Below, piece after piece: positions 16,926-50,513 of a stretch of DNA of 64,000 nt. The stretch lies in the NCBI GenBank assembly GCA_964019135.1, contig OZ025248.1, positions 53,685,670-53,749,669 of the forward strand, given 5' to 3'. Source of the stretch: Arenicola marina. Taxonomy: Eukaryota > Annelida > Polychaeta > Arenicolidae. Within the stretch, counting starts at the first letter, position 1; every line of letters starts with the position of its first letter. The notes below the pieces were generated by a model that was not told where the DNA came from, made no database searches, and saw only the letters and a list, made by a program, of their open reading frames with translations. The position numbers and the translations under genes were made by a program.

Positions 16926-16949
16926 CCTTTGCTTATGCGTTCACGTTCA

Positions 16950-21800: not shown

Positions 21801-24800
21801 AGGCTTTGTTTGACAGGAAGCAAGGAAGCCAAATACTGTGTGCTGACCTTACCCCACCCTGCCCCTTACACGCATCCTGTGGTGGCTACGGCTACGGAAG
21901 CTTTTGGGGTGACTGACCGTACAAGCCCCCTACGCTTTACCACCCCTCCCCCCCCCCGCCCCACCCAAAAAAAAAAAAGTTTTGGAACAGCTGCAAAATT
22001 AATTAATTTTTTTGACTGTATGTTTTGGAACACCCAGGTTTGTAATTATATTTCGGGTGTTCCAAAACATACGTAAATGACGGTAGTATCATTTATGTCC
22101 GAATAGCAGTGATCGAAGCAATCTCAAGAATATCCCTTTTGCACATGGGGGTGGGGGGTTGCAACTGCGGACCTCTACTTTCAAAAAAAAAAACTGGGAG
22201 GTGGGGGTGAGACTATATGACTGCAAAATGATTTTTTGTGCAGCCGGTGGTGGTGATCCAGACCTCAGATGGCCTTGTTTTTTGCGGGAAGAAAAGCAGA
22301 AGGGTCATTGAAATTTCTTTGACTTTAACAGTCCTTAACATCCCCTTCCTTGAGGGGGGTGGGGTTAACCCCCCCTTGGATCCACTGGGTTACATCTACA
22401 ACATGTTAATAATAATTATTAATAACTTGATACATATAATGTAATAATATATATCGGTTATATGATAATAAAAACATCATCAAATACATGCGATCTTAAT
22501 TATTCTTTATTATTGCCTGTCCAATCTCTGATTAATGTCTATAATTTTGTATCACTAAATAAAAAATGTCTGTGCTGAATTTTATCGATGTAGTCTAGGC
22601 CAAGATCGTCTACAAGCATAGTCCTGGGAGACCCACTCCGTAACCTCCGTAGGCCAGCGGCGGAGTGGGGCTCCCGAGGCTACTACAAGCACTGAGCTAT
22701 GTATGCTACAGCTAGGACTTGACAAAGGGTAACTGCAGAAGTAATTCCCTTGAAAGATTATAATATTCGAAATATTTTACCCTTTGAAGCAAAAATATAT
22801 ATATTCCCGAGCTTTTAAACGCGCACCGATCTCTTAACTAGATATATTGACATTAATTTTAATCCAAATAATATAAGGAGTTGCCTGGTCACATTTTTTT
22901 TATTTAGAGGCCAAAGCTTGTCAATTAAACTAAAAGCCTATATTATCGCCCATACTCTTCTAAAATATTATTTTTAGTGGGTAGTTTGACCTATTTTTGG
23001 AATAAATTGCTGCAAGTTAGCTAGGAAAGCTCTTTATTTTTCATCCGCTGTTATGTTTGACAACTAATTCTATGAAATATGCTTTGCTGTGAAGTGTTAA
23101 ACACCCCTTTTTGTCTGCTTCGAAAAAAGTGATTGTCAGCGCCATCTGGCGAATATTGCGGTCAACGCCTGAAAAGTCAGGACGGCCTGATTTCTCAGGC
23201 CGTCCTGACTTCTCAGGACCGTCCCTAGCCTGTTGATATGCAAATTAAACATTCATTGTAGATCACTCAAAAAAGGCTGTTTAAGTAATTGAAGCAATAA
23301 ATCATGCCTTGAGGGGGTGCAAGCCAAGTACAAGAGACTGGAAGCGAAATGTTTTGATATTTGACAGGTTAAACATATATATTATGATTAGATTCTTGAA
23401 TGTTATAATTTTTTAACCTGGTCTGAGCTGGCCTCTTAAGCTTATAGCGAGAGAGGCCAGCTCCGGCCAGGTGGCTAAATGAGCTAAAGTAAGGCCACCT
23501 GTTGTAACCCCTCGCCCAATGCGTAGGGAAGCATGGGGACATTTTAGAGATTTTGTTGGTTGAGTGCCAGAGCGGAGAATGTTCCTATATGTAAAAGTGC
23601 CATTACAATACTATTAGCCAGGAAGGATTTTGTACTTTGAAGCTTACTCAACTTATTGTTCTAATGGTATTATTAAATATTTTAGTTCTTCCAACCAATG
23701 ACAAGAGATTATTATGTCCCATACCAACATTGTGACCTCTCCTTGTTAACTCTCTCACTCTTTCTACCAACTTCTCATTATAGGGAGTTTTCACACATAA
23801 AAGTGTTGAAAATGATATAACCTAACAGGCAATGTATCCACAGTTTGTTTCCTGTGTATTTTGCAGGATGACTCCATCAGTATCAGCACTGGCAGCATTG
23901 CTGATGACAGTTCAAGAAGCGAAACCCCAACCATTTCTGGTGGCCATCGAAGACGCAGAAAGGGGGCCAAGTTCTCGAAAGGCAAGCTGCAGTACAAATG
24001 TACCAATTACCTGAAGGTAAGTCTTGTATAAATGATTGCTAGAAGTTTAATAACTTGTCAATGCTAGTCATCACATTTTCTCATATATCATTGTTTGCAT
24101 AAGAGAAGTTACATACCACACCTTTGCATAGGGAATACTGGGAAGAGATGCAAGAGGGAAAGTGTGCAACTAAGGCATGAACTGACAAATAGCATAGAAT
24201 TGCAATTTTTATCCGCAATTAATTAAGTAACACTTATCTGTAATTCTTGTTTTGGTTTCTTTTCTGTTATCATTATTTATGACACAGTGAGTTGAAGCAG
24301 TTTATGTGAGCTAGGGTAGCAGATGACTGGCTAAGCTAAGATGCTCATTAGTTTGCGAGGATAGGTGGCGTTCCGTAAGGGCCTTGTGTTGGCAAAGATC
24401 CCATGTCTTTCTTCGTAAAGAGTAGGGGTTACCCCAGGAACATGGCTCCACTCTCCCTTCCTTCTCTCATTGATGTGATATGACCAATAGTGGTTAAAGC
24501 GTCCTGAATCTGTGGATATACAACCAACCGTCAGGGCCTTTAGTGTGGTGCTAAGAACCTCTTGCAATGTGGAGTGTAAATAAAGTGTTTATGTTTGAAC
24601 AATTTATTTGTTACCATTCTGAAAATTAAAGTTGTAAGATATGCTTGAGATAGACTTGGAAAAAACTAAATTTGTGAAACTTTTTACATATATATGCATG
24701 CTTGTTACCTTAGGAGCTCGCTTACGCTGTCTATCACTCGCCTGTCCCAATAAAAATGCTACAATTTCTGTAATTTTATTAGAGTGGTGTTAAGGTTTTG

Positions 24801-27800
24801 CACTTTATTCAGTTACCTCCCATGTATGTATATGGACTTCAGGAAGACCATGGGCAGCCCTTGTTTGGGGTCCAATTCAACCACAACAGCAAAGACGGGG
24901 AACCATTGATATTTGCTGCAGTGGGAAGCAACAGAGTGAGTATAGAAAGTTTCTTTCTTTCACACTCTTGTTGATGTCTTTGCGTAATGGAATGTGCCTG
25001 TTTGAATCAGCCCAGGCAATGGTTGTATTTGTACCGGCCAGCAGCTTGAGTTATTGGAAGACAGCATGAGAGTGAATGTGTGGTCTGCAGCGACACGACT
25101 GTTGTCTAGAGCAACGATACATTAGCGCTCAAACACGGACGAGAAAGTGATCTACGGCATGGAGAAGGTAACCTAGACCATAAAGAAAGTGGCTTTGAGA
25201 GCAGGAATAATTAAATGTAATTGATTTATAGATATAGTAGACTGCTTCTACGCAACTATCTGTGGGGCATGAAGCAGCCTTTGATGATGACATGACTGGG
25301 CGTTCGCACCGCAATGCACACAACACGCAGGGCCGCCCCGATAGCTCAGTGGGTTAGAGCGCTCGCCTTCAGCGAGCTCGCCTCTGGCCACCTGAAAGCC
25401 TAACGGCACGTGGATCGGTGGTCGAGCCCCGCTGTTGCCATGTCTGCGTGGTCGCATGATAAAGATCACATGTTCTTCCCAAATAAGAAGGGGTTACCCC
25501 CGGGAACATGGCTCCGCTCTCCCCTCTTTCTCCCATTGACGTTGTATGACCAAAAGTGATACAAACGTCCTGAATATACAACCAATTAAGCTGAATATAC
25601 AAGCAACTCACACAACACGCCGGCTGTCGGTTTGTCCTTGTCTAGATCACGATCTACGAGTGCGAGGAGGAGGGCAAGGTGAAGCTGCTCCAGGCTTACG
25701 TCGACGCCGACGCTGACGAGAACTTCTACACCGTGGCCTGGACCTATGACGAGGTGACTGGTCAGGCCCTACTGGCCGTGGCCGGGGGACGAGGGGTCAT
25801 CCGTATCCTCTGTCCAGTCACCATGCAGTGTATCAAGGTAATACCCCCACCCCCCCCCCCACCCCCCAGTACCACCCCTGGACCTATGACGAGGTGACTG
25901 GTCAGGCCCTACTGGCCGTGGCCGGGGGACGAGGGGTCATCCGTATCCTCTGTCCAGTCACCATGCAGTGTATCAAGGTAATACCCCCCCCCCCACCCCC
26001 CAGTACCACCCCTGGACCTATGACGAGGTGACTGGTCAGGCACTACTGGCCGTGGCCGGGGGAAGGGGGGGTCATCCGTATCCTCTGTCCAGTCACCATG
26101 CAGTGTATCAAGGTAATACCCCCCCCTCACCCCCAGTACCACCCCTGGACCTATGACGAGGTGACTGGTCAGGCCCTACTGGCCGTGGCCGGGGGACGAG
26201 GGGTCATCCGTATCCTCTGTCCAGTCACCATGCAGTGTATCAAGGTAATACCCCCACACCCCCCCCCCCCCCACCTCCCAGTACCACCCCTGGACCTATG
26301 ACGAGGTGACTGGTCAGGCTCTACTGGCCGTGGCCGGGGGACGAGGGGTCATCCGTATCCTCTGTCCAGTCACCATGCAGTGTATCAGGGTAATACCCCC
26401 CCCCCCACCCCCCAGTACCACCCCTGGACCTATGACGAGGTGACTGGTCAGGCCCTACTGGCCGTGGCCGGGGGACGAGGGGTCATCCGTATCCTCTGTC
26501 CAGTCACCATGCAGTGTATCAAGGTAATACCCCCCCCCACCCCCCAGTACCACCCCTGGACCTATGACGAGGTGACTGGTCAGGCCCTACTGGCCGTGGC
26601 CGGGGGAAGGGGGGGTCATCCGTATCCTCTGTCCAGTCACCATGCAGTGTATCAAGGTAATACCCCTCCGCCCCCTCACCCCCCAGTACCACCCCTGGAC
26701 CTATGACGAGGTGACTGGTCAGGCCCTACTGGCCGTGGCCGGGGGACGAGGGGTCATCCGTATCCTCTGTCCAGTCACCATGCAGTGTATCAAGGTAATA
26801 CCCCCCCACCCCCCAGTACCACCCCTGGACCTATGACGAGGTGACTGGTCAGGCCCTACTGGCCGTGGCCGGGGGACGAGGGGTCATCCGTATCCTCTGT
26901 CCAGTCACCATGCAGTGTATCAAGGTAATACCCCTCCGCCCCCTCACCCCCCAGTACCACCCCTGGACCTATGACGAGGTGACTGGTCAGGCCCTACTGG
27001 CCGTGGCCGGGGGACGAGGGGTCATCCGTATCCTCTGTCCAGTCACCATGCAGTGTATCAAGGTAATACCCCCCCACCCCCCAGTACCACCCCTGGACCT
27101 ATGACGAGGTGACTGGTCAGGCCCTACTGGCCGTGGCCGGGGGACGAGGGGTCATCCGTATCCTCTGTCCAGTCACCATGCAGTGTATCAAGGTAATACC
27201 CCCCCACCCCCCAGTACCACCCCTGGACCTATGACGAGGTGACTGGTCAGGCCCTACTGGCCGTGGCCGGGGGACGAGGGGTCATCCGTATCCTCTGTCC
27301 AGTCACCATGCAGTGTATCAAGGTAATACCCCGCCCCCTCACCCCCAGTACCACCCCTGGACCTATGACGAGGTGACTGGTCAGGCCCTACTGGCCGTGG
27401 CCGGGGGAAGGGGGGGCCATCCGTATCCTCTGTCCAGTCACCATGCAGTGTATCAAGGTAATACCCCGCCCCCTCACCCCCAGTACCACCCCTGGACCTA
27501 TGACGAGGTGACTGGTCAGGCCCTACTGGCCGTGGCCGGGGGAAGGGGGGGCCATCCGACCCAGTGCATCAAGGTCATATCAATATTCTTTCTTTCGTTC
27601 TCCTTCGTCCCGAGAAGCTCCTTGTGCGCACAAAAGTGGCCTGAAACACCGAATTCATTTCATTTATCTGCAGCATTTTATCGGCCACGGTCAGTCCATC
27701 AACGAGCTCAAGTTCCACCCGAAAGATCCCAACATACTGCTGTCCGTCAGTAAAGGTAACTTATATATTACGCTTACTTCACAATTTGTCTTCATTCTAG

Positions 27801-30800
27801 GAATCACAGACTGTTTGTCATGGTGTTTGTATTAAATGTCGATTGGACGCTGTATCTGCAGAGCACCCATTTACAATATGCCTTCAGCTGTCAGGCCACA
27901 GCACCCGTTTACACTGAACCTTCAGCTGTCAGCCACAGCACCCGTTTACAATGTGCCTTCAGTTGTCAGCCACAGCACCCGTTTACATGTGCCTTCTGCT
28001 GTCAGACCCGTTTACATGTGCCTTCTGCTGTCAGACCCGTTTACATGTGCCTTCTGCTGTCAGACCCGTTTACTTGTGCCTTCTGCTGTCAGACCCGTTT
28101 ACTTGTGCCTTCTGCTGTCAGACCCGTTTACATGTGCCTTCTGCTGTCAGACCCGTTTACATGTGCCTTCTGCTGTCAGACCCGTTTACTTGTGCCTTCT
28201 GCTGTCAGACCCGTTTACATGTGCCTTCTGCTGTCAGACCCGTTTACATGTGCCTTCTGCTGTCAGACCCGTTTACATCTGCCTTCTGCTGTCAGATCAC
28301 ATGCTGAGGCTGTGGAATATAAAGACCGACGTTTGTTGCGTCCTCTTCGGTGGCGTCGAGGGCCACAGGGATGAGGTGCTCAGTGGGGTAAGTACTGGGT
28401 GGGAGGGGGGGGGGGGTCAGGGCGTGGCTGGGTGGTGGTGGGGGGTCAGGGTGTAGTTGGATGGTGGTGGGGGTCAGGGCGTGGCTGGGTGGTGGTGGGG
28501 GTCAGGGTGTAGCTGGGTGGTGGTGGGGGTCAGGGTGTAGTTGGATGGTGGTTGGGGTCAGGGCGTGGCTGGGTGGTGGTGGGGGTCAGGGTGTGGCTGG
28601 GTGGTGGTGGGCGTCAGGGTGTGGCTTGGTGGTGGTGGGGGTCAGGGTATAGCTGGGTGGTGGTGGGGGTCAGGGTGTAGCTGGGTGGTGGTGGTGGTCA
28701 GGGTGTAGCTGGGTGGTTGTGGGGGTCAGGGTGTAGCTGGGTGGTGGTGGGGGTCAGGGTGTAGCTGGGTGGTGGTGGGAGTCAGGGTGTAGCTAGGTAG
28801 TGGTGGGGGTCAGGGTGTAGCTGGATAGTGGTGGGGGTCAGGGTGTAGCTGGGTGGTGGTGGGGGTCAGGGTGTAGCTGGGTGGTGGTGGGGGTCAGGGT
28901 GTAGATGGGTGGTGGTGGGGGTCAGGGTGTAACTGGGTGGTGGTGGGGGTCAGGGTGTAGCTGGGTGGTGGCGGGGGGTCAGGGTGTAGCTTGGTGGTGG
29001 TGGGGGTCAGGGTGTAGCTGGGTGGTGGGGGAGTCAGTGTGTAGCTGGGTGGTGGTGGGGGTCATGGTGTAGCTGGGTAGTGGTATAGGTCAGGTAGTAG
29101 CTGGGTGGTGGCGGGGGTCAGGGTGTAGCTGGGTGGGGGTCAGGGTGTAATGGGTGGTGGTGGGGGTCAGGGTGTAGATGGGTTGTGGTGGGGGTCAGGG
29201 TGTAGCTGGGTGGTGGGGGGGGGGGGTCAGGGTGTAGCTGGGTGGTGGAGGGGGTCAGGGTGTAGCTGGGTAGTGGTGGGGGTCAGGGTGTATCTGGGTG
29301 GTGGTGGGGGTCAGGGTGTAGCTGGGTGGTGGTGGGAGTCAGGGTGTAGCTGGGTAGTGGTGGGGGTCAGGGTGTAGCTTGGTGGTGGTGGGGGTCAGGG
29401 TGTAGCTGGGTGGTGGTGGGGGTCGGGGTGTGGCTGGGTGGTGGTGGGGGTCAGGGTGTAGCTGGGTGGTGGTGGGGGTCAGGGTGTAGCTGGGTGGTGG
29501 AGGGGGTCAGGGTGTAGCTGGGTAGTGGTGGGGGTCAGGGTGTAGCTGGGTGGTGGTGGGGGTCAGGGTGTAGTTGGGTGGTGGTGGGGGTCAGGGTGTA
29601 GCTGGGTGGTGGTGGGGGTCAGGGTGTAGCTGGGTAGTGGTGGGGGTCAGGGTGTAGCTGGGTGGTGGTGGGTGTCAGGGTGTAGCTTGGTGGTGGTGGG
29701 AGTCAGGGTATAGCTGGGTGGTGGTGGGGGTCAGGGTGTAGCTGGGTGGTGGTGGGTGTCAGGGTGTAGCTTGGTGGTGGTGGGAGTCAGGGTATAGCTG
29801 GGTAGTGGTGGGGGTCAGGGTGTAGCTGGGTGGTGGTGGGGGTCAGGGTGTAGCTGGGTGGTGGTGGGGGTCAGGGTATAGCTGGGTAGTGGTGGGGGTC
29901 AGGGTGTAGCTGGGTAGTGGTGGGGGTCAGGGTGTAGCTGGGTTGTGGTGGGGGTCAGGGAGTAGCTGGGTGGTGGGGGTCAGAGTGTAGCTGGGTGGTG
30001 GTGGGGGTCAGAGTGTAACTGGGTAGTGGTGGGGGTCAGGGTGTAGCTGGGTGGTGGTGGGGGTCAGGGTGTAGCTTGGTGGTGGTGGGGGTCAGGGTAT
30101 AGCTGGGTGGTGGTGGGGGTCAGGGTATAGCTGGGTGTTGGTGGGGGTTAGGGTGTAGCTGGGTGGTGGTGGGGGGCAGGGTGTAATTGGGTGGTGGTGG
30201 GGGTCAGGGTGTAGTTGGGTGGTGGTGGGGGTCAGGGTGTAGCTGGGTAGTGGTGGGGGTCAGGGTGTAGCTGGGTAGTGGTGGGGGTCAGGGTGTAGCT
30301 GGGTGGTGGTGGGGGTCAGGGTGTAGCTGGGTAGTGGTGGGGGTCAGGGTGTAGCTGGGTGGTGGTGGGGGTCAGGGAGTAGCTGGGTGGTGGTGGGGGT
30401 CAGGGTGTAGCTGGGTGGTGGTGGGGGTCAGGGTGTAGCTTGTTGGTGGTGGGGGTCAGGGTCTAACAAAGTGGATAGGTGCTATGATCACCTATAAGGA
30501 TCAGTTTGTAAGTCCGACACTGTATCCCTAGTAATATTGAATGCTCTGTGGATACCGTTATTTAGCAACTGGATCAGCGGCGGTGCGTGTACAGCAAACG
30601 TATCCAGGCGCCAATATGTATGGAAGGCCATTATTCCACAAAGTATATCTTTGGTCAATGTCAAAATAAAAATCCATAGGATGGAACAGACCTCGGCAAT
30701 CCATAACTGTCGTCGCTAGCTCTTCACACACTCATGTTAAATCTGCGTTATTGTCTGGCTGAAGATATTGACTGTGTATCCCGTGTTAGAATAATAATGG

Positions 30801-33800
30801 CAATCAGCATATGAATGACGTTGATTTGTGATATTTCCTTTCTGAATCAGGATATTAATTTGGAGGGCAACTTGATTGTGTCTTGCGGCATGGACCACTC
30901 GTTGAGGATCTGGCGGATCGACAAGCCGATGGTGGTGGAGACAGTGGCCCTGTCATACAAGTACAACCCCGCCAAGACCAACAAGTCAGACATTATACAC
31001 GTTTGTCTTACCATACTCTTTAAGTTGCATGTGTGCTCATGCACAGATAACGTGGTACTGTACAAATAATGTAAGAATTAAAATTATCAGGCACGGGCTT
31101 GCTTTGATTAGCTGTTTGAGCTAAAGATATCGTTTATCTATGCTTTATCTATTATGACTACCAGAAGTACTGTCAGTATATTGCGATGTTCGGTTTGTAC
31201 ATATATTTGTTTGTATCAGTGTCTTGTGTCTACATTATGTATGTCGCAATTCAACAGGTATAATTGTCAAATTTAGATATGTCAAATAGTGGGGTCCAGT
31301 TCCTTAATGGCATATGTAGGTGAAAGGTCAAGGTCAGTGATTTTTTTAGGAAAGAAAAATGAAGAAAAAGCCATGTTCCTCACAATCTTTCAGACCATGC
31401 CCTCACCATCTTTCAGATTATTCCCATCATTATCTTTCAAACCATTCCCATCACTTTGTTTCAGACCATTCCTTCACTAACTTTCAACCATTCCTTCCCT
31501 TTCAGACCATTTCCGTCACTATATCAACACTATCCAGACTTTTGCACAAGAGACATCCACCGAAACTATGTGGATTGCGTCAGATGGTTTGGCAAGTTTG
31601 TCCTATCCAAGGTAAATATTGAAGTCAAAGCGAGTGTCAGGAAAAACATGGTATCTTATGTACCGGTAACTGAATAATAAAACATAGCGCTGTACAGTGT
31701 AGTGTCATTGGACCTTCTCTTGTGCTTTTTACCACCGCGTGAACGTGTTAAAGATTCTATTTTAGGTGTCCCGGAATACGGTGTACCGGAATACGGTGTA
31801 CCGGAATACGGTGTACCGGAATACGGTGTCCCGGAATACGGTGTACCGGAATACGGTGTACCGGAATACGGCGTACCGGAATGTGATTGCCAACATGTGT
31901 GCCTATGGGTACATCGTATTGCAAGTGAAGTGGCAATGGTGGGGTTTAACTTATGAACAGTCTCTTCACAAATGTCATTCGGGGGTTTGACATTTATGTT
32001 TGATGATGAAGCAAAAATCAAGTAAAGTTATAAAATGTTTTATTATATGTCCTAACAATAATCGATACCTGTTTGGCTTCCCATATTGGTCGTCAATCTC
32101 TATTATTGATTGGCAATTATAAATCACAATCGTCGTTACTAATTGCTCCAAAGCGTCAGCCAATCACAACTTTCGTTACTAATTGTTCCAATGGGTAAGC
32201 CAATGACAATCGAGGTTTCTCGTAGTGTGAAAAGAAGAACTATTTTTTAATATGATGTAAAAAAGAAAGCAATGGCGTGAGGTGTTGTTTGGTCTCCCTT
32301 GGCAGTCTTGTGAGAACCGCATTGTGTGCTGGAAGCCGGGTCGGATGACGGAGTTTGACTACCCGCTGAAACTAACAGACAGTCGAGTGGCCATCCTACA
32401 CCAGTTCGACTTCCGAGAGTGTGACATCTGGTTCATGCGCTTCTCCATGGACTACTGGCAGAAGGTGGGTGGTGTGGGGTGGAACTGGCAGACGGTAGGT
32501 GGTGTGTGGGGTGTAACTGGCAGAAGGTGGGTGGTGTGGGGTGGAACTGGCAGAAGGTGGGTGGTGTGGGGTGGAACTGACAGAAGGTGTGTGGGGTGTA
32601 ACTGGCAGAAGGTGGGTGGTGTGGGGTGCAACTGGCAGAAGGTGGGTGGTGTGTGGGGTGGAACTGGCAGAAGGTGGGTGGTGTGGGGTGGAACTGGCAG
32701 AAGGTGGGTGGTGTGGGGTGTAACTGGCAGAAGGTGGGTGGTGTGTGGGGTGTAACGGGTAGAAGGTGGGTGGTGTGTGGGGTGTAACTGGCAGAAGGTG
32801 GGTGGTGTGGGGTGGAACTGGCAGAAGTTGGGTGGTGTGGGGTGGAACTGGCAGAAGGTGGGTGGTGTGTGGGGTGTAACTGGCAGAAGGTGGGTGGTGT
32901 GTGGGGTGCAACTGGCAGAAGGTGTGAGGTGTGTGGGGTGTAACTGGCAGAAGGTGGGTGGGGTGTGGGGTGTAACTGGCGGAAGGTGTGGGGTGTAACT
33001 GGCAGAAGGTGGGTGGTGTGTGGGGTGTAACTGGCGGAAGGTGTGGGGTGTAACTGGCAGAAGGTGGGTGGTGTGGGGTGTAACAGGCAGAAGGCGGGTG
33101 GTGTGTGGGGTATAACTGGCAGAAGGTGGGTGGTGTGGGGTGTAACTGGCAGAAGGTGGGTGGGGTGTGGGGTGCAACTGGCAGAAGGTGTGTGGGGTGT
33201 AACTGGCAGAAGGTGGGTGGTGTGTGGGGTGTAACTGGCAGAAGGTGGGTGGGGTGTGGGGTGCAACTGGCAGAAGGTGTGAGGTGTGTGGGGTGTAACT
33301 GGCAGAAGGTGGGTGGTGTGTAGGGTGTAACTGGCAGAAGGTGGGTGGTGTGTGGGGTGTAACTGGCGGAAGGTGTGGGGTGTAACTGGCAGAAGGTGGG
33401 CGGTGTGGGGTGTAACAGGCAGAAGGCGGGTGGTGTGTGGGGTGTAACGGGTAGAAGGTGGGTGGTGTGTGGGGTGGAACTGGCAGAAGGTGGGTGGTGT
33501 GGGGTGGAACTGGCAGAAGGTGGGTGGTGTGGGGTGGAACTGGCAGAAGGTGGGTGGTGTGGGGTGTAACGGGCAGAAGGTGGGTGGTGTGTGTGGTGTA
33601 ACGAGCAGAAGGTGTGTGGGGTGTAACGGGCAGAAGGTGGGTGGTATGTGGGGTGTAACGGGCAGAAGGTGGGTGGTGTGTGGGGTGTAACTGGCAGAAG
33701 GTGGGTGGTGTGGGGTGTAACTGGCAGAAGGTGGGTGGTGTGTAGGGTGTAACTGGCAGAAGGTGGGTGGTGTGTGGGGTGTAACTGGCAGAAGGTGGGT

Positions 33801-36800
33801 GGTGTGGGGTGGAACGGGCAGAAGGTGGGTGGTGTGTGTGGTGTAACGAGCAGAAGGTGTGTGGGGTGTAACGGGCAGAAGGTGGGTGGTGTGTGGGGTG
33901 TAACTGGCAGAAGGTGGGTGGTGTGTGGGATGTAACTGGCAGAAGGCGGGTGGTGTGTGGGGTGTAACTGGCAGAAGGTGGGTGGTGTGTGGGGAGTAAC
34001 TGGCAGAAGGTGGGTGGTGTGTAGGGTGTAACTGGCAGAAGGGGGGTGGTGTGTGGGGTGTAACTGGCAGAAGGTGGGTGGTGTGGGGTGTAACAGGCAG
34101 AAGGTGGGTGGTGTGTGGGGTGTAACTGGCAGAAGGTGGGTGGTGTGTGGGGTGTAACTGGCAGAAGGTGGGTGGTGTGTGGGGTGTAACTGGCAGACGG
34201 TGGGTGGTGTGTGGGGTGTAACTGGCAGAAGGTGGGTGGTGTGGGGTGCAACTGGCAGAAGGTGTGTGGGGTGTAACTGGCAGAAGGTGGGTGGTGTGTA
34301 GGGTGTAACTGGCAGAAGGTGGGTGGTGTGTGGGGTGTAACTGGCGGAAGGTGTGGGGTGTAACTGGCAGAAGGTGGGTGGTGTGGGGTGTAACAGGCAG
34401 AAGGCGGGTGGTGTGTGGGGTATAACTGGCAGAAGGTGGGTAGTGTGTGGGAAGTAACTCGCAGAAGGCGGGTGGTGTGTGGGGTGTAACTGGCAGAAGG
34501 TGTGTGGTGTGGGATGTAACTGGCAGAGGTGGGTGGTGTGTGGGGGTGTAACAGGCAGAATGTTGGTGGTGTGTGGGGTGTAACGGGCAGAAGGTGTGGG
34601 GTGTAACTGGCAGAAAGTGAGTGGTGGGTGGTGTGTGGGTGTAACTGGCAGAAGGTGTGTGGGTTGTAACTGGCAGACGGTGGGTGGTGTGTGGGGTGTA
34701 ACTGGCAGAAGGTGAGTGGTGTGTGGGTTGTAACTGGCAGAAGGTGGGTAGTGTGTAGGGTGTAACTGGCAGAAGGTGGGTGGTGTGGGGTGTAACAGGC
34801 AGAAGGTGTGTGGGGTGTAACTGGCAGAAGGTGGGTGGTGTGGGATGTAACTGGCAGAAGGCGGGTGGTGTGTGGGGTGTAACTGGCAGAAGGTGGGTGG
34901 TGTGTGGGGTGTAACTGGCAGACGGTGGGTGGTGTGGGATGTAACTGGCAGAAGGCGGGTGGTGTGGGGTGTAACTGGCAGAAGGTGGGTGGTGTGTGGG
35001 GAGTAACTGGCAGAAGGTGGGTGGTGTGTAGGGTGTAACTGGCAGAAGGGGGGTGGTGTGTGGGGTGTAACTGGCAGAAGGTGGGTGGTGTGGGGTGTAA
35101 CAGGCAGAAGGTGGGTGGTGTGTGGGGTGTAACTGGCAGAAGGTGGGTGGTGTGTGGGGTGTAACTGGCAGAAGGTGGGTGGTGTGTGGGGTGTAACTGG
35201 CAGACGGTGGGTGGTGTGTGGGGTGTAACTGGCAGACGGTGGGTGGTGTGGGATGTAACTGGCAGAAGGCGGGTGATGTGTGGGGTGTAACTCGCAGAAG
35301 GCGGGTGGTGTGTGGGGTGTAACTGGCAGAAGGTGGGTGGGGTGGGGTGGAACGGGCAGAAGGTGGGTGGTGTGTGGGGTGTAACTGGCAGAAGGTGTGT
35401 GGTGTGTGGGGTGTAACTGGCAGAAGGTGGGTGGTGTGTAGGGTGTAACTGGCAGAAGGTGGGTGGTGTGTGGGGTGTAACTGGCAGAAGGCGGGTGGTG
35501 TGTGGGGTGTAACTCGCAGAAGGCGGGTGGTGTGTGGGGTGTAACTGGCAGAAGGTGGGTGGTGTGGGGTGGAACGGGCAGAAGGTGGGTGGGGTGTGGG
35601 GTGTAACTGACAGAAGGTGGGTAGTGTGTGGGGTGTAACTGGCAGAAGGTGGGTGGTGTGGGGTGGAACTGGCAGAAGGTGGGTGGTGTGTGGGGTGCAA
35701 CTGGCAGAAGGTGGGTAGTGTGTGGGGAGTAACTCGCAGAAGGCGGGTGGTGTGTGGGGTGTAACTGGCAGAAGGTGTGTGGTGTGGGATGTAACGGGCA
35801 GAAGGTGGGTGATGTGTGGGGGTGTAACAGGCAGAATGTGGGTGGTGTGTGGGGTGTAACGGGCAGAAGGTGTGTGGTGTGGGGTGTAACTGGCAGAAAG
35901 TGAGTGGTGGGTGGTGTGTGGGTGTAACTGGCAGAAGGTGTGTGGGTTGTAACTGGCAGACGGTGGGTGGTGTGTGGGGTGTAACTGACAGAAGGTGGGT
36001 GGTGTGTGGGTTGTAACTGACAGAAGGTGGGTGGTGTGTAGGGTGCAACTGGCAGAAGGTGGTTGGGGTGTAACTGGCAGAAGGTGGGTGGTGTGTGGGG
36101 TGTAACGGGCAGAAGGTGGGTGGTGTGTGTGGTGTCGCGAGCAGAAGGTGTGTGGGGTGTAACGGGCAGAAGGTGGGTGGTATGTGGGGTGTAACTGGCA
36201 GAAGGTGGGTGGTGTGTGGGGTGTAACTGGCAGAAGGTGTGTGGGGTGTGGGGTGTAACTGGCAGAAGGTGGGTGGTGTGTAGGGTGTAACTGGCAGAAG
36301 GTGGGTGGTGTGTGGGGTGTAACTGGCAGAAGGTGGGTGGTGTGTGGGGTGGAACGGGCAGAAGGTGGGTGGTGTGTGGGGTGCAACTGGCAGAAGGTGT
36401 GAGGTGTGTGGGGTGTAACTGGCAGAAGGTGGGTGGGGTGTGGGGTGTAACTGGCGGAAGGTGTGGGGTGTAACTGGCAGAAGGTGGGTGGTGTGTGGGG
36501 TGTAACTGGCGGAAGGTGTGGGGTGTAACTGGCAGAAGGTGGGTGGTGTGGGGTGTAACAGGCAGAAGGCGGGTGGTGTGTGGGGTATAACTGGCAGAAG
36601 GTGGGTGGTGTGGGGTGTAACTGGCAGAAGGTGGGTGGGGTGTGGGGTGCAACTGGCAGAAGGTGGGTGGTGTGTGGGGTGTAACTGGCGGAAGGTGTGG
36701 GGTGTAACTGGCAGAAGGTGGGTGGTGTGGGGTGTAACAGGCAGAAGGCGGGTGGTGTGTGGGGTATAACTGGCAGAAGGTGGGTGGTGTGGGGTGTAAC

Positions 36801-39800
36801 TGGCAGAAGGTGGGTGGGGTGTGGGGTGCAACTGGCAGAAGGTGTGTGGGGTGTAACTGGCAGAAGGTGGGTGGTGTGTGGGGTGTAACTGGCAGAAGGT
36901 GGGTGGGGTGTGGGGTGCAACTGGCAGAAGGTGTGAGGTGTGTGGGGTGTAACTGGCAGAAGGTGGGTGGTGTGTAGGGTGTAACTGGCAGAAGGTGGGT
37001 GGTGTGTGGGGTGTAACTGGCGGAAGGTGTGGGGTGTAACTGGCAGAAGGTGGGCGGTGTGGGGTGTAACAGGCAGAAGGCGGGTGGTGTGTGGGGTGTA
37101 ACGGGTAGAAGGTGGGTGGTGTGTGGGGTGGAACTGGCAGAAGGTGGGTGGTGTGGGGTGGAACTGGCAGAAGGTGGGTGGTGTGGGGTGGAACTGGCAG
37201 AAGGTGGGTGGTGTGTGGGGTGTAACGGGCAGAAGGTGGGTGGTGTGTGTGGTGTAACGAGCAGAAGGTGTGTGGGGTGTAACGGGCAGAAGGTGGGTGG
37301 TATGTGGGGTGTAACGGGCAGAAGGTGGGTGGTGTGTGGGGTGGAACTGGCAGAAGGTGGGTGGTGTGGGGTGCAACTGGCAGAAGGTGTGTGGGGTGTA
37401 ACTGGCCGAAGGTGGGTGGTGTGTAGGGTGTAACTGGCAGAAGGTGGGTGGTGTGTGGGGTGTAACTGGCAGAAGGTGGGTGGTGTGGGGTGGAACGGGC
37501 AGAAGGTGGGTGGTGTGTGTGGTGTAACGAGCAGAAGGTGTGTGGGGTGTAACGGGCAGAAGGTGGGTGGTGTGTGGGGTGTAACTGGCAGAAGGTGGGT
37601 GGTGTGTGGGATGTAACTGGCAGAAGGCGGGTGGTGTGTGGGGTGTAACTGGCAGAAGGTGGGTGGTGTGTGGGGAGTAACTGGCAGAAGGTGGGTGGTG
37701 TGTAGGGTGTAACTGGCAGAAGGGGGGTGGTGTGTGGGGTGTAACTGGCAGAAGGTGGGTGGTGTGGGGTGTAACAGGCAGAAGGTGGGTGGTGTGTGGG
37801 GTGTAACTGGCAGAAGGTGGGTGGTGTGTGGGGTGTAACTGGCAGAAGGTGGGTGGTGTGTGGGGTGTAACTGGCAGACGGTGGGTGGTGTGTGGGGTGT
37901 AACTGGCAGATGGTGGGTGGTGTGGGGTGCAACTGGCAGAAGGTGTGTGGGGTGTAACTGGCAGAAGGTGGGTGGTGTGTAGGGTGTAACTGGCAGAAGG
38001 TGGGTGGTGTGTGGGGTGTAACTGGCGGAAGGTGTGGGGTGTAACTGGCAGAAGGTGGGTGGTGTGGGGTGTAACTGGCAGAAGGTGGGTGGTGTGGGGT
38101 GTAACAGGCAGAAGGCGGGTGGTGTGTGGGGTATAACTGGCAGAAGGTGGGTAGTGTGTGGGAAGTAACTCGCAGAAGGCGGGTGGTGTGTGGGGTGTAA
38201 CTGGCAGAAGGTGTGTGGTGTGGGATGTAACTGGCAGAGGTGGGTGGTGTGTGGGGGTGTAACAGGCAGAATGTTGGTGGTGTGTGGGGTGTAACGGGCA
38301 GAAGGTGTGGGGTGTAACTGGCAGAAAGTGAGTGGTGGGTGGTGTGTGGGTGTAACTGGCAGAAGGTGTGTGGGTTGTAACTGGCAGACGGTGGGTGGTG
38401 TGTGGGGTGTAACTGGCAGAAGGTGAGTGGTGTGTGGGTTGTAACTGGCAGAAGGTGGGTAGTGTGTAGGGTGTAACTGGCAGAAGGTGGGTGGTGTGGG
38501 GTGTAACAGGCAGAAGGTGTGTGGGGTGTAACTGGCAGAAGGTGGGTGGTGTGGGGTGTAACAGGCAGAAGGTGGGTGGTGTGTGGGGTGTAACTGGCAG
38601 AAGGTGGGTGGTGTGTGGGGTGTAACTGGCAGACGGTGGGTGGTGTGGGGTGTAACAGGCAGAAGGTGGGTGGTGTGTGGGGTGTAACTGGCAGACGGTG
38701 GGTGGTGTGGGATGTAACTGGCAGAAGGCGGGTGGTGTGTGGGGTGTAACTGGCAGAAGGTGGGTGGTGTGTGGGGAGTAACTGGCAGAAGGTGGGTGGT
38801 GTGTAGGGTGTAACTGGCAGAAGGGGGGTGGTGTGTGGGGTGTAACTGGCAGAAGGTGGGTGGTGTGGGGTGTAACAGGCAGAAGGTGGGTGGTGTGTGG
38901 GGTGTAACTGGCAGAAGGTGGGTGGTGTGTGGGGTGTAACTGGCAGAAGGTGGGTGGTGTGTGGGGTGTAACTGGCAGACGGTGGGTGGTGTGTGGGGTG
39001 TAACTGGCAGACGGTGGGTGGTGTGGGATGTAACTGGCAGAAGGCGGGTGATGTGTGGGGTGTAACTCGCAGAAGGCGGGTGGTGTGTGGGGTGTAACTG
39101 GCAGAAGGTGGGTGGGGTGGGGTGGAACGGGCAGAAGGTGGGTGGTGTGTGGGGTGTAACTGGCAGAAGGTGTGTGGTGTGTGGGGTGTAACTGGCAGAA
39201 GGTGGGTGGTGTGTAGGGTGTAACTGGCAGAAGGTGGGTGGTGTGTGGGGTGTAACTGGCAGAAGGCGGGTGGTGTGTGGGGTGTAACTCGCAGAAGGCG
39301 GGTGGTGTGTGGGGTGTAACTGGCAGAAGGTGGGTGGTGTGGGGTGGAACGGGCAGAAGGTGGGTGGTGTGTGGGGTGTAACTGACAGAAGGTGGGTAGT
39401 GTGTGGGGTGTAACTGGCAGAAGGTGGGTGGTGTGGGGTGGAACTGGCAGAAGGTGGGTGGTGTGTGGGGTGCAACTGGCAGAAGGTGGGTAGTGTGTGG
39501 GGAGTAACTCGCAGAAGGCGGGTGGTGTGTGGGGTGTAACTGGCAGAAGGTGTGTGGTGTGGGATGTAACGGGCAGAAGGTGGGTGATGTGTTGGGGTGT
39601 AACAGGCAGAATGTGGGTGGTGTGTGGGGTGTAACGGGCAGAAGGTGTGTGGTGTGGGGTGTAACTGGCAGAAAGTGAGTGGTGGGTGGTGTGTGGGTGT
39701 AACTGGCAGAAGGTGTGTGGGTTGTAACTGGCAGACGGTGGGTGGTGTGTGGGGTGTAACTGACAGAAGGTGGGTGGTGTGTTGGTTGTAACTGACAGAA

Positions 39801-41758
39801 GGTGGGTGGTGTGTAGGGTGCAACTGGCAGAAGGTGGTTGGGGTGTAACTGGCAGAAGGTGGATGGTGTGTGGGGTGTAACTGGCAGAAGGTGTGTGGTG
39901 TAGGGTGTAACTGGCAGACGGTGGGTGGTGTGTGGGGTGTAACTGGCAGAAGGTGTGTGGTGTAGGGTGCAACTGGCAGAAGGTGGGTGGTGTGTGGGGA
40001 GTAACTGGCAGAAGGTGGGTGGTGTGGGGTGTAACAGGCAGAAGGCGGGTGGTGTGTGGGGTGTAACTGGCAGAAGGTGTGTGGTGTAGGGTGTAACTGG
40101 CAGACGGTGGGTGGTGTGTGGGGTGTAACTGGCAGAAGGTGTGTGGTGTAGGGTGCAACTGGCAGAAGGTGGGTGGTGTGTGGGGAGTAACTGGCAGAAG
40201 GTGGGTGGTGTGGGGTGTAACAGGCAGAAGGCGGGTGGTGTGTGGGGTGTAACTGGCAGAAGGTGTGTGGTGTAGGGTGTAACTGGCAGACGGTGGGTGG
40301 TGTGTGGGGTGTAACTGGCAGAAGGTGTGTGGTGTAGGGTGTAACTGGCAGACGGTGGGTGGTGTGTGGGGTGTAACTGGCAGAAGGTGTGTGGTGTGTG
40401 GGGTGTAACTGGCAGAAGGTGGATGGTGTGTGGGGTGTAACTGGCAGAAGGTGTGTGGTGTAGGGTGTAACTGGCAGACGGTGGGTGGTGTGTGGGGTGT
40501 AACTGGCAGATGGTGTGTGGTGTGTGGGTGTAACTGGCAGAAGGTGGGTGGTGTGTAGGGTGTAACTGACAGAAGGTGGGTGGTGTGTTGGTTGTAACTG
40601 ACAGAAGGTGGGTGGTGTGTAGGGTGCAACTGGCAGAAGGTGGGTGGTGTGTGGGGTGTAACTGGCAGAAGGTGTGTGGTGTAGGGTGTAACTGGCAGAC
40701 GGTGGGTGGTGTGTGGGGTGTAACTGGCAGACGGTGGGTGGTGTGTGGGGTGTAACTGGCAGATGGTGTGTGGTGTGGGGTGTAACTGGCAGACGGTGGG
40801 TGGTGTGTGGGGTGTAACTGGCAGATGGTGTGTGGTGTGGGGTGTAACTGGCAGAAGGTGGGTGGTGTGTAGGGTGTAACTGGCAGAAGGTGGGTGGTTT
40901 GGGTGTGTAACTGGCAGAAAGTGGGTGATGGGGGGTGTCACTGTGTGAATGTGACAACATCTTTCCGATAGAGATTTAACGTTTCGGTTTGACACATGTT
41001 ACTTTCACAGATCCTGGCGCTGGGCAATCAGTACGGCCGAGTGTTTGTCTGGGATATGGATGTGGAGGACCCCACACAAACCAGGTCAGTGAGTGCACGC
41101 CAAGCGACACGAACGCCCCTACAGGGGGTGGGGAATACCCCCTTTGAATCGCGAATCTCCAAGAATTAGGGGGAGCAATATCGAATCTCCAAGATTAGGA
41201 CATTTTTAAAGCTGGGCGCCAAAAAAGCGCCTTAAAGGTGCTATCGCGAATATCGAGGAGTTCGCAGACTACTGTTATAACGGATCGCGGTAAATGAGCA
41301 AAGTATCTTCGCGTTGAACCAGGAATTGTACGGATAACAATCCCCCAAAATTTCCAACAGCTAATGGAGAATCTCAAAGAATTTCTGGATGCCAATCGCG
41401 GAGATCAGACCCCCTCCCCCACCCCAACCCTATAGAGACGGGCAGACCTTGCCGCTGTCATCACGATATTAGTGTCAAGTGCGAGATCTCGCATTGTATC
41501 CTCGTATTAAGTGTCAAGTGCGACCCCATCGCGGACGAGAATTTACGACGATTTAAGTAGTATATGTATTTATAACAAAAATTATTTGTATGTATCACAC
41601 CGGTGTGATTTAACCTCTGCGCTATTTCCAGGTGCACAGTTTTGACTCACCCCAAGTGTATATCGGCGGTACGACAAACCAACCTGAGCCGGGATGGACA
41701 CACGCTGATCTGCGTCTGTGACGACGCCAGCATCTGGAGGTGGGACAGGGTCAAATGA
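18747..41758 (+). CDS. EED: Polycomb protein EED, 11 coding exons (gene-level entry)
   Basis: EED is the WD40 scaffold subunit of Polycomb Repressive Complex 2. It binds EZH and SUZ12, reads H3K27me3 and stimulates the methyltransferase in the nucleus. Exons are 18747-18845, 23867-24016, 24843-24935, 25646-25837, 27674-27755, 28296-28387, 30851-30984, 31506-31611, 32306-32464, 41011-41084 and 41632-41758. All junctions are GT-AG with matching phases. The joined frame is 1308 nt (435 residues; human 441 from memory). An acidic and then basic N-terminal tail (1-73) precedes a seven-bladed WD40 propeller (about 74-435). Recognisable stretches are [59 protein letters not shown] and [11 protein letters not shown]. 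By alignment the trimethyl-lysine cage is F91, Y142, W358 and F359 (human F97, Y148, W364, Y365). Introns hold over 12 kb of tandem arrays. Identification is near certain; exon edges rest on splice rules and homology, without transcripts. Confidence 0.96.
21231..22083. mobile_element. Nested TA-flanked MITE-like element, 853 bp
   Basis: Terminal inverted repeats begin CCGTCATTT at both ends and continue through CGTATGTTTTGGAACACC with about one mismatch in 28. TA dinucleotides flank both ends (21229-21230 and 22084-22085), which is the Tc1/mariner-type target duplication. The word ATGTTTTGGAACACC or ATGTTTTAGTACACC recurs several times inside each end. The interior is GC-rich, with CACCCC-type runs and no transposase. 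It lies wholly inside the 3.8-kb element and is therefore the younger insertion. Confidence 0.7.
22615..22685. other. Inverted repeat (hairpin) inside the intron 1 transposon
   Basis: GGGAGACCCACTCCG and CGGAGTGGGGCTCCC face each other across about 20 nt and would form a strong stem with a bulge. It may be an internal structure of the surrounding element. No function is claimed. Confidence 0.5.
23408..23475. other. Inverted repeat (hairpin) in EED intron 1
   Basis: GAGCTGGCCTCT and AGAGGCCAGCTC pair across about 15 nt, and an outer CCTGG / CCAGG pair extends the stem. It sits just outside the 3.8-kb element. The role is unknown. Confidence 0.5.
23867..24016 (+). CDS. EED: EED coding exon 2
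   Basis: Acceptor ttgcag, donor AAG|gtaagt, phase 0 on both sides, residues 34-83. It carries a Ser/Asp-rich part ([16 protein letters not shown]), a TPT-like motif and a basic run ([14 protein letters not shown], about 60-73). It then enters the first WD40 strand with YKCTNYLK, equivalent to human FKCVNSLK. Confidence 0.95.
24335..24545 (+). mobile_element. Degenerate tRNA-derived SINE copy in EED intron 2
   Basis: It shares, in order, ATCCCATGT-CTT, GGGGTTACCCC-GGAACATG, CTCTCCCTT, CATTGA and GCGTCCTGAA-ATACAACCA with the younger SINE at 25329-25608. The tRNA-like head is not recognisable, and the body has many substitutions, so it is an older copy in the same orientation. Confidence 0.65.
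24843..24935 (+). CDS. EED: EED coding exon 3
   Basis: Acceptor ttcag, donor AGA|gtgagt, phase 0, residues 84-114. It encodes [16 protein letters not shown] through AAVGSNR, close to human [13 protein letters not shown] and ATVGSNR. F91 in PLFGVQ aligns with human F97 of the H3K27me3 aromatic cage. Confidence 0.97.
25329..25608 (+). mobile_element. tRNA-derived SINE with 12-bp target duplication in EED intron 3
   Basis: The element is bounded by perfect direct repeats CACACAACACGC (25317-25328 and 25609-25620). Its head carries RNA polymerase III boxes: A box TAGCTCAGTGGG (25342-25353) and B box GGTCGAGCC (25420-25428). They are further apart than in a normal tRNA, so this is tRNA-derived rather than a tRNA gene. 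A conserved body (GGGGTTACCCCCGGGAACAT) and a tail with CTGAATATACAA twice follow. The perfect duplication implies a recent insertion, 25 bp before the exon 4 acceptor. Confidence 0.9.
25646..25837 (+). CDS. EED: EED coding exon 4 (original copy)
   Basis: Acceptor gtctag, donor AAG|gtaata, phase 0, residues 115-178. It contains [12 protein letters not shown], with Y142 matching human cage residue Y148, and [11 protein letters not shown] ending VTMQCIK. This is the only complete copy. Its 3' portion from about 25723, with the donor, is repeated in tandem immediately downstream. Using this first donor with the exon 5 acceptor gives the canonical protein. Confidence 0.96.
25838..27580 (+). repeat. 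EED: Tandem array of 13 extra EED exon 4 3'-part copies (130-145 bp units)
   Basis: Each unit is a pyrimidine-rich stretch ending ccccag, then a 108-nt block encoding 36 residues ([10 protein letters not shown] to VTMQCIK), then a gtaata donor and a C-rich tract. Counting exon 4 there are 14 copies; the ACCTATGAC word starts at 25742, 25882, 26016, 26149, 26294, 26428, 26560, 26699, 26829, 26967, 27097, 27227, 27361 and 27496. Copies are almost identical, third codon positions included. Units at about 26000, 26545, 27345 and 27480 carry a one-base insertion in the Gly-rich codons, and the last also has a 22-nt deletion that restores frame. One unit changes the terminal AAG to AGG. The gaps between blocks are only 22-37 nt. 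Confidence 0.93.
27674..27755 (+). CDS. EED: EED coding exon 5
   Basis: Acceptor ctgcag, donor AAAG|gtaact, leaving phase 1. It encodes residues 179-205, [16 protein letters not shown] to LLSVSK, and the first base of Asp206. It matches human [16 protein letters not shown] closely. Confidence 0.97.
27852..28295 (+). repeat. EED: Intron 5 minisatellite built from the exon 6 acceptor (29-bp unit)
   Basis: Eleven unit starts are spaced exactly 29 bp from 27981 to 28271, each reading ACCCGTTTACATGTG then CCTTCTGCTGTCAG. The last TGCTGTCAG (ending 28295) is the acceptor of exon 6. About three older units of 36 bp, with an extra CCACAGC, precede them. Every unit therefore ends in a usable-looking polypyrimidine-AG. 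The frame of exon 6 stays open back to 27836, so an acceptor three units upstream would add 29 residues in frame. Confidence 0.93.
28296..28387 (+). CDS. EED: EED coding exon 6
   Basis: Acceptor tgtcag, donor GGG|gtaagt. It completes Asp206 and encodes 207-236, [14 protein letters not shown] to [22 protein letters not shown] is identical to the human stretch. It leaves in phase 0. Confidence 0.97.
28400..30466 (+). repeat. EED: Intron 6 G-rich minisatellite, 28-bp unit, starting next to the donor
   Basis: About 74 copies of a 28-bp unit made of GTCAGGGTGTAGCTGGG and TGGTGGTGGGG begin within some 15 nt of the exon 6 donor. The donor-proximal sequence gtaagtactgggtgggaggg resembles the unit. 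Each pair of adjacent units satisfies the G-quadruplex pattern: four runs of three or more G, with loops of 7, 3 and 7 nt. The G-rich strand is the transcribed RNA sense. Confidence 0.93.
30467..30850 (+). other. Unique part of EED intron 6
   Basis: Non-repetitive sequence between the G-rich array and exon 7. An open frame at 30537-30719 has no recognisable features. The acceptor region before exon 7 reads ttctgaatcag. Confidence 0.6.
30851..30984 (+). CDS. EED: EED coding exon 7
   Basis: Acceptor aatcag, residues 237-280 plus two bases of Lys281. It encodes [24 protein letters not shown] and YKYNPAKTN. The donor is weak: AACAA|gtcaga. It is preferred because it leaves phase 2, fits the phase-2 start of exon 8 and gives KTNKPF, like human KTNRPF. 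The next GT (after ATACAC) would break the frame. Confidence 0.9.
31383..31505 (+). repeat. EED: Intron 7 repeat built from the exon 8 acceptor (~23-bp unit)
   Basis: Five imperfect units of 19-24 bp precede exon 8, each of the form CTTTCAG followed by ACCATTCCCATCACT. The exon itself begins TTTCAG|ACCATTTCCGTCACT. The units therefore contain the acceptor and the first 15 or so exon bases. Some units have CAA in place of CAG and so have lost the AG. Confidence 0.85.
31506..31611 (+). CDS. EED: EED coding exon 8
   Basis: Acceptor ctttcag, donor AAG|gtaaat. It completes Lys281 and encodes 282-316, [18 protein letters not shown] to [21 protein letters not shown] is essentially identical to human. 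It leaves in phase 0. Confidence 0.96.
31765..31882 (+). repeat. 15-bp microsatellite in EED intron 8
   Basis: Eight copies of a 15-bp unit GGTGTACCGGAATAC (some with TCCC for TACC). It reads as an open GVPEY repeat in one frame, but it lies in an intron between well-defined exons, so coding is unlikely. Confidence 0.9.
32306..32464 (+). CDS. EED: EED coding exon 9
   Basis: Acceptor ttggcag, donor TGGCAGAAG|gtgggt, phase 0, residues 317-369. It starts [14 protein letters not shown] and ends [16 protein letters not shown]358 and F359 align with human cage residues W364 and Y365, so the second position is Phe instead of Tyr. The exon end and donor are the seed of the 8.5-kb array that follows. 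Confidence 0.96.
32465..40945 (+). repeat. EED: 8.5-kb intron 9 minisatellite repeating the exon 9 end and donor (~30/32-bp unit)
   Basis: Units of mainly 30 or 32 bp read AACTGGCAGAAG then GTGGGTGGTGTGTGGGG plus a short link. TGGCAGAAG|GTGGGT is exactly the exon 9 / intron 9 junction (Trp-Gln-Lys plus donor). From the length there are roughly 270 units, most keeping AAG|GTGGGT. Higher-order duplication is visible: blocks at 33043, 33105 and 33375 recur at 36697, 36759 and 37029 (offset 3654), and later marker variants recur at offsets near 3.71 and 3.77 kb. The complement lacks stop codons in every frame, which creates minus-strand frames of over 2800 codons. Confidence 0.95.
41011..41084 (+). 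CDS. EED: EED coding exon 10
   Basis: Acceptor tttcacag, donor ACCAG|gtcagt, phase 2. It encodes residues 370-393, [16 protein letters not shown] and DVEDPTQT, plus two bases of Arg394. It matches human [21 protein letters not shown]. Confidence 0.96.
41131..41408 (+). repeat. Dispersed repeat, copy 2, in EED intron 10
   Basis: This is the partner of 10907-11176 in the same orientation, 30.2 kb away, with the same order of shared words (GAATCGCGAATCTCC, CTTCGCGTTGAACCAGG, CCAATCGCGGAGATCAGA). Substitutions and small indels separate the copies, so this is not a recent segmental duplication. Confidence 0.8.
41632..41758 (+). CDS. EED: EED coding exon 11 with stop
   Basis: Acceptor tttccag. 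It completes Arg394 and encodes 395-435, CTVLTHPKC to [15 protein letters not shown], with TGA at 41756-41758. The C-terminus lines up with human [13 protein letters not shown], so the reading frame is intact to the end. Confidence 0.97.
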
Positions 41759-42530: not shown

Positions 42531-42633
42531 CTGGGGATTTTGTGTTTTTAGAAAAAGGTAGAAACTTTAATACTTGTAAGACTAACGATATGCAATCTAC
42601 GCGTTCTACTTCATTGGTCTGACAAGGTTCATA

Positions 42634-49700: not shown

Positions 49701-50513
49701 TGTCGAAGCGGCCTGGTTGGACCCGACTAGCGGTGCCGGGAGGCCGGAGCGGCCTGGTTGGACCTGACTAGCGGTGCCGGGAGGCCGGAGCGGCCTGGTT
49801 GGACCTGACTACCGGTGCCGGAAGGTCGGAGCGGCCTGGTTGGACCTGACTAGCGGTACTGGGAGGCCGGATGGACCGGACTAGCAGTGTGGGGAGGTCG
49901 GATGAACATGACTAGCGGTGCCCGGAGGTCGGAGCGTTTGGGTTGGACCTCACTAACGGTGTAGGGAGGTCGGAGCGGCCCGGTTGGACCTGACTAGCGG
50001 TGCCGGGAGGCTGGAGCGGCCTGGTTGGACCTGACTAGCGGTGGCGGGAGGTCGGAGCGGCCTGGTTGGACCTGACTAGCGGTGCCGGGAGGTCGGAGCG
50101 GCCTGGTTTGAACTGACTAGCGGTGCTGGGAGGTCGGAGCAGCCTGGTTGGACCTGACTAGCGGTGCCGGGAGGTCGGAGCGGCCTGGCTGGACCTGACT
50201 AGCGGTGCCGGGAGGCCGGAGCGGCCTGGTTGGACCTGACTAGCGGTGGCGGGAAGTCGGAGCGGCCTGGCTGGACCTGACTAGCGGTGCCAGGAGGTCG
50301 GAGCGGCCTGGTTGGACCTGACTAGCGGAGCCGGGAGGCCGGAGCGGCCTGCTTGGACCTGACTAGCGGTGTCGGGAGGTCGGAGCGGCCTGGTTGGACC
50401 TGACTAGCGGTGCCGGGAAGTCGGAGCGGCCTGGTTGGACCTGACTAGCGGTGCCGGGAAGTCGGAGCGGCCTGGTTGGACCTGACTAGCGGTGCCGGGA
50501 GGTCCGAGCGGGC
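46780..50513. repeat. Minisatellite D, 41-bp unit, 3.7 kb
   Basis: About 90 copies of a 41-bp GC-rich unit made of CTGACTAGCGGTGCCGGGAG and GTCGGAGCGGCCTGGTTGGAC. Shorter variant units with GGTGGGATGGACGTGACTAG form a recurring multi-unit block (near 47335, 48225, 49100, 49250 and 49430). A donor-like word, CAAG|GTAACAG, stands immediately before the first unit. Confidence 0.95.

Follow-up and report, generated by a model that had tools for sequence, protein, structure and literature searches.

Background

Minisatellites whose repeat units span exon-intron borders are known from amphioxus, where they have been termed "mirages". According to the available portions of the reports describing them (PMC3087553, PMC3902484), these tandem units are found in Adh3, TnC, PGBD5 and the globin genes BflGb6 and BflGb9, involve either 5' or 3' borders, and keep AG or GT in many of their copies, while splicing appears normal, the mechanism is presented as unclear and intron gain is considered a possible sequel. 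In BflGb6, the same sources give 6 and 3 units for the two haplotypes. This study deals with comparable arrays in the EED gene of the annelid Arenicola marina, located in a 64,000-nucleotide stretch of the forward strand of contig OZ025248.1 (hereafter the window; C1:53685670-53749669 of a genome of 867 Mb in 762 contigs). These arrays are interpreted here, with a probability of roughly 0.75, as minisatellites of the mirage type, arisen by tandem DNA duplication of segments that span exon-intron borders. The basis of this interpretation is the anatomy of the arrays, the local origin of the unit repeated at the exon 9 donor, the recurrence of such arrays in other genes, and an approximately twofold excess at exon borders.

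As far as the available text on amphioxus goes, the mirages and the EED arrays have in common border-spanning units, the involvement of both border types, the retention of AG and GT, and occurrence in several genes; the former, however, are cephalochordate and made of few copies, whereas the annelid locus features about 270 units in one array and several affected junctions in a single gene. In humans, the title of one report names a minisatellite containing multiple donor sites, reportedly in the interferon-induced gene 6-16 (IFI6/G1P3), which is apparently a single locus. Tandem genomic duplication has been proposed as a route to intron gain in the Rogers model, which, in the part of the paper available (PMC3443670), likewise duplicates a segment containing splice signals, but there an exonic AGGT segment generates a new intron, whereas the EED arrays multiply an existing junction. 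Among annelids, earthworm metallothionein genes resemble EED in having long intronic minisatellites, together with exon duplications absent from the transcript; their monomers average 178 and 181 bp and, in the accessible portion of the report, are not described as grown from junctions (PMC12783039). A literature search by title, with most subscription journals outside its reach, returned no junction-derived arrays in annelids. Within the literature searched, this is apparently a mirage-like system outside lancelets, and what is new in it is its phylum, the number of copies and an initial estimate of the rate.

Results and discussion

Junction-bearing arrays in the EED gene

A preliminary description of this DNA had assigned the gene to EED, and the product of the joined exons aligns with human EED at 614 bits over query residues 1-401. 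Ten exons, extending from 23867 to 41758, splice into a single open frame (Table 1); they are numbered 2 to 11 in agreement with that description, exon 2 being the first one located and exon 1 not having been found. Tandem repeats of the window were detected with Tandem Repeats Finder (TRF), and six arrays lying in EED introns, named A to F, were studied.

Exon bases and a splice site are both found inside the repeat unit in three of the six arrays (A, C and D). Array B repeats the exon 6 acceptor with at most one exonic base, the remainder being intronic; the preliminary claim that four arrays carry an authentic junction in their unit thus stands for A, C and D, and for B it is restricted to the acceptor. 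The copy numbers proposed at that stage were close to those counted here: 14 copies of the exon 4 end and donor in array A correspond to 13 intact donor copies, the authentic one included, followed by a truncated final copy, and about 270 units of the exon 9 end and donor correspond to 269 anchored units in array D. The presence of the first codons of exon 8 in the units of array C, which has 6 acceptor-like copies, was likewise borne out. Array E had been said to start next to the exon 6 donor, and it does, in terms of proximity alone: its unit resembles the junction no more than expected by chance, the observed similarity being reached in 18 of 200 shuffles and in 856 of 2000 when most of the array is omitted, so that the unit is not demonstrably derived from the junction. 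The unit of array F has no relation to the EED junctions.

The arrays noted in the preliminary description are thus confirmed, with the restrictions given for B and E; the idea of minisatellites grown from splice junctions had already been published as the amphioxus mirage. Under the mirage interpretation, a short segment happening to span an exon-intron border would have undergone tandem duplication in the DNA, and its copy number would then have grown into the intron through unequal exchange or slippage. The authentic junction persists as the outermost copy, the first one for donors and the last one for acceptors; the coding sequence is therefore intact, and the other copies lie in the intron as presumed decoys. 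Arrays would persist since splicing would require no site other than the outermost, and their seeding may be favoured by G/C runs beside junctions, whether by slippage, by stalling or by G-rich structures that could form on one strand or the other.

A different explanation is that the copies are functional, and are used as exons or splice sites for alternative or lengthened EED proteins. The units of array A between 25853 and 27558 do resemble mini-exons, as CAG is followed by GTAATA after 108 bases in nine of twelve cases and after 109 in the other three, and in the first copies the 108-base interval between AG and GT is open in the frame of exon 4. Moreover, in five of the seven donor arrays that have one dominant AG-to-GT interval, that interval is divisible by three, a weak pattern which was sought after the fact and reaches about P 0.05 by hand calculation. 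On the other hand, the ten exons without any copy give a protein aligning along human EED, the 30 and 32 bp units of array D mix frames, and published mirages, in the available text, leave splicing undisturbed; a functional role is thus regarded as very improbable.

The array at the exon 9 donor

In array D, GT is present at the donor position in 235 of the 269 units, and, with a simple matrix, 149 units reach or exceed the score of the authentic donor. Among the 119 matches listed for this array in a similarity search that skips very common words, those with at least 84% identity lie solely at this locus, and matches elsewhere do not exceed 76%, bar a few short ones of up to 82%; the unit was therefore most likely made in place. 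The copies are mutually divergent (85% matches according to TRF), and a higher-order repeat of about 3.7 kb is present within the array, the commonest 40-mer offsets being 3775, 3711, 3654 and 3681, which fits with unequal exchange. The same internal repeat might instead be an echo of the assembly, as would be expected if the arrays were artefacts of collapsed or inflated repeats. The divergence among copies and the similar anatomy found in independent genes speak against this explanation, which appears hardly credible.

Hits to junctions within EED were compared with chance after collapsing each of the six arrays to one unit; the remaining sequence of about 5.1 kb contains 18 junctions, and 0.9 junction hits would be expected. 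Four or more hits (A, B, C and D) have a probability of 0.003, and three or more of 0.034; this test is post hoc, the gene having been picked for its arrays, and the independent test is provided by the genome sample. The share of EED junctions hit, 4 of 18, is high next to that sample, but EED was chosen for that very feature.

Arrays at exon borders in other genes

Since EED had been selected for its arrays, exon blocks of CCT, myosin and WD40 genes were sampled from the rest of the genome, for a total of 96 blocks (192 edges) and 209.5 kb of sequence. The rows used were 39 of 49 for CCT, 45 of 77 for myosin and 12 of 150 for WD40, the fetched sequence extending 400 bp or more to either side in all of them, and the WD40 rows near fetched loci were chosen from the list by eye. 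After a first look, a further choice was made of six 10-kb stretches (L069-L074), four with arrays in view and two without; by a hand check, three of the 96 blocks rest on them and none of the three is a hit. An array edge was counted when it fell between 100 bp inside and 60 bp outside a block edge with the array running outward, and the null distribution was obtained by rotating arrays within segments.

Array edges were found near 28 of the 192 block edges, against 12.7 expected, and none of 2000 rotations reached this number. The excess concerns both sides, with 16 against 6.4 for donors and 12 against 6.4 for acceptors, and it persists with narrower windows (27 against 10.0 and 18 against 5.9, none of 2000 rotations in either case). 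In a subset of 82 blocks, 25 edges compare with 11.0 expected and 13 clear cases with 5.9 (P 0.008); predicted splice sites could be placed for 59 donors and 30 acceptors of these blocks, with near/far ratios of 3.1 and 2.2.

The junction lies within the repeat unit at 14 of the 192 edges (about 7%), namely at nine donors and five acceptors, in 7 of the 34 gene loci; these cases were judged by reading, with no automatic rule. Part of the block edges are not true junctions, and the real rate per junction may therefore be higher. Several of the seven loci carry two or three junction arrays (Table 1), and the involvement of both border types parallels EED, where A and D are donor arrays and B and C acceptor arrays. 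Copy-to-copy alignment of ten donor arrays placed the junction in the unit together with 11 to 101 exon bases. The AG or GT signals are retained across many copies, although not in every array. Of the 28 nearby array edges, the remaining 14 were left out of the junction-bearing class, and one of these (C1:36056061) is apparently located beyond a stop codon.

On the scale of the whole genome, three copies of CAGGTGAGT separated by gaps of 12-42 bases occur at 2660 places against 830 for the reversed motif (3.2 times), and tandem AAGGTAAGT at 447 against 219 (2.0 times); these counts are supporting only, as places overlap within arrays and a few arrays contribute many places in the lists shown. 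The preliminary description had held that exon borders are hit more often than chance would allow, and had suggested a comparison with randomised positions. Carried out by rotation on the 96-block sample, this comparison did return an excess at exon borders in genes other than EED, so that it is not specific to that gene. There is thus a real excess, but one of no more than about twofold amid abundant arrays, and about half of the junction hits are therefore expected from the abundance of minisatellites alone.

This raises the possibility that abundance is the whole explanation: arrays would be seeded uniformly, those that break exons would be removed by selection, and those overlapping a border would survive because their outermost copy works. 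Arrays make up 23% of the sampled sequence, and uniform seeding predicts 7.0 junction-bearing units among the 192 edges, half of those counted. Yet 14 against 7.0 corresponds to P 0.012, and the excess of array edges is not reproduced by any rotation. Both null models omit selection against exon damage and are therefore generous to this explanation, which is considered possible, if somewhat doubtful.

Several results weigh against an origin of the arrays by duplication of border-spanning segments, or reduce its scope. Removing the two weakest junction-bearing cases, C8:22405017, for which a limit of 5 mismatches in 20 returned no further copy, and C17:12808598, in which AG is lost in the copies printed, leaves 12 against 7.0 (P 0.05), a modest excess at the level of units that is also what plain abundance would accommodate. 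For acceptor arrays extending into the block no excess was registered (6 against 3.75; 328 of 2000 rotations). In array D, the donor G is kept in 0.90 of the units and the T in 0.78, compared with a mean of 0.92 for the other positions, and this lower conservation of the T may reflect selection against decoys, or nothing. Finally, the link with G/C runs is weak: GC skew, taken in absolute value, does not differ between junction arrays and the others (P 0.90), and in the 14 bases that precede the seam a run of at least 5 is present in only four of ten donor arrays, while two have no run.

Sequence correlates and seeding

The preliminary description had named splice sites, or the R-loops and breaks formed there, as nucleation points; in such a mechanism, transcription or splicing at the junction would actively nucleate tandem duplication in the germline. 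The excess on both the donor and the acceptor side would agree with this, as would the surplus of tandem donor motifs over reversed ones and the strongly positive GC skew of arrays D and E on the sense strand. The lack of a difference in absolute skew between junction arrays and other arrays argues against it, and array A, together with the array at C7:32814139, is C-rich on the sense strand, contrary to what would favour R-loops. Active nucleation of this kind is accordingly judged unlikely. A broader proposal would make exon-intron borders active seeding points for minisatellites genome-wide, driven by germline transcription or splicing and acquired independently in lancelets, with in-frame units surviving preferentially and feeding new exons and introns; it is put forward here as a speculation that we would not expect to hold.

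For the preferred origin by duplication of border-spanning segments, a simpler, sequence-based partial cause is plausible in the G/C runs found beside junctions, although the numbers are small. Runs of five G or five C are present in 8 of 14 junction arrays and in 18 of 75 other arrays (Fisher P 0.022; P 0.008 for the run fraction), and G runs account for 1.22% of the sequence up to 60 bp past donors, compared with 0.40% at 400-1200 bp (82 blocks). DNA folding of three units gave nothing strong. A link between the unit seam and a preceding AG was also considered, and was dropped as being near chance.

Other features of the window and the genome

The features of EED, the remaining large arrays of the window and the sampled genes with more than one junction array are listed in Table 1.

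Table 1. Location of the EED exons, of the tandem arrays of the window and of sampled genes with several junction arrays (window positions unless a contig is given)
Feature	Position	Strand	Description	Basis
EED exon 2	23867..24016	+	First exon found	Open joined frame, GT-AG borders
EED exon 3	24843..24935	+		Open joined frame
EED exon 4	25646..25837	+	Authentic donor AAG/GTAATA	Open joined frame
EED exon 5	27674..27755	+		Open joined frame
EED exon 6	28296..28387	+		Open joined frame
EED exon 7	30851..30984	+	Weak donor CAA/GTCAGA	Open joined frame
EED exon 8	31506..31611	+		Open joined frame
EED exon 9	32306..32464	+	Authentic donor AAG/GTGGGT	Open joined frame
EED exon 10	41011..41084	+		Open joined frame
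EED exon 11	41632..41758	+	Last coding exon, with stop	Open joined frame
Array A	25737..27558	+	Units of ~130-140 bp: 101 bp from the end of exon 4, then the donor, a C-tract and CAG	
Array B	27862..28295	+	Related units of 37 bp (3.9 copies), then 29 bp (11.0 copies), up to the exon 6 acceptor CTGTCAG/	
Array C	31376..31522	+	Units of ~23 bp spanning the acceptor of exon 8 plus ~16 bases at the start of that exon	
Array D	32454..40943	+	Units chiefly of 30 and 32 bp: the final 11 bases of exon 9, the donor and the G-rich beginning of the intron	
Array E	28412..30462	+	G-rich 28-bp units, 73 copies, beginning 24 bp beyond the exon 6 donor	
Array F	31765..31882	+	15-bp units, intron 8	TRF
Multi-kb minisatellite	8304-10669		Outside the EED introns studied	TRF
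Multi-kb minisatellite	11743-16935		Outside the EED introns studied	TRF
Multi-kb minisatellite	42633-45393		Outside the EED introns studied	TRF
Multi-kb minisatellite	46779-50511		Outside the EED introns studied	TRF
Multi-kb minisatellite	54700-61205		Outside the EED introns studied	TRF
CCT gene	C17:26.07 Mb		Three junctions with arrays	
CCT gene	C8:22.4 Mb		Two junctions with arrays	
Myosin gene	C12:10.1 Mb		Three junctions with arrays	
Myosin gene	C7		Two junctions with arrays	

The five multi-kb minisatellites, compared with the EED junctions only, are unrelated to them. In the array starting at 54700, the unit includes, on the minus strand, a donor-like CTGAGTAAGT with no exon found beside it. 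A coding-like last exon lies at 7566-8045; it has no Pfam match, and 260 bp downstream of it there is an array of 35-bp units. The genes neighbouring EED in the window could not be placed.

Outside the window, a muscle-type myosin gene at C4:367768-384767 has four exon matches for each of the profile regions ~110-154 and ~590-640, in the manner of alternative exons, and its two fetched loci (L043, L049) contain no arrays. Kinase genes with one or more in-frame TAG or TAA codons occur on the small contigs C232, C330, C443, C465, C497, C504, C609, C652 and C684; this is a ciliate-type code, and the contigs probably stem from a ciliate contaminant or symbiont. Among the matches listed, at least dozens of kinase matches with open frames of about 280-320 residues lie in C3:14-57 Mb, mostly at 45-57 Mb. 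The mitochondrial genes are arranged on one strand in the order nad4L-nad4-(rRNA stretch)-nad1-nad3-nad2-cox1-cox2-atp8-cox3-nad6-cob-atp6-nad5, read by eye, with cox1 alone identified by a family search; we take this order to be the annelid ground pattern. It points to an annelid and away from a lancelet, a source first entertained on account of the mirage literature. A muscle myosin exon scored best against squid and scallop chains, and a search for the GFP family returned nothing, a negative that its control set could not validate.

Conclusions

Splice-junction minisatellites, so far a lancelet curiosity, are extended to apparently another phylum, with a rate, among the exon-block edges sampled, of about 7%. 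In genomes of this kind, gene models would be easily misled. If the excess at exon borders holds genome-wide, the growth of introns and the choice of the spliceosome among hundreds of near-identical donors would become testable, and so would the question of whether new introns and exons draw on junction copies as their raw material.
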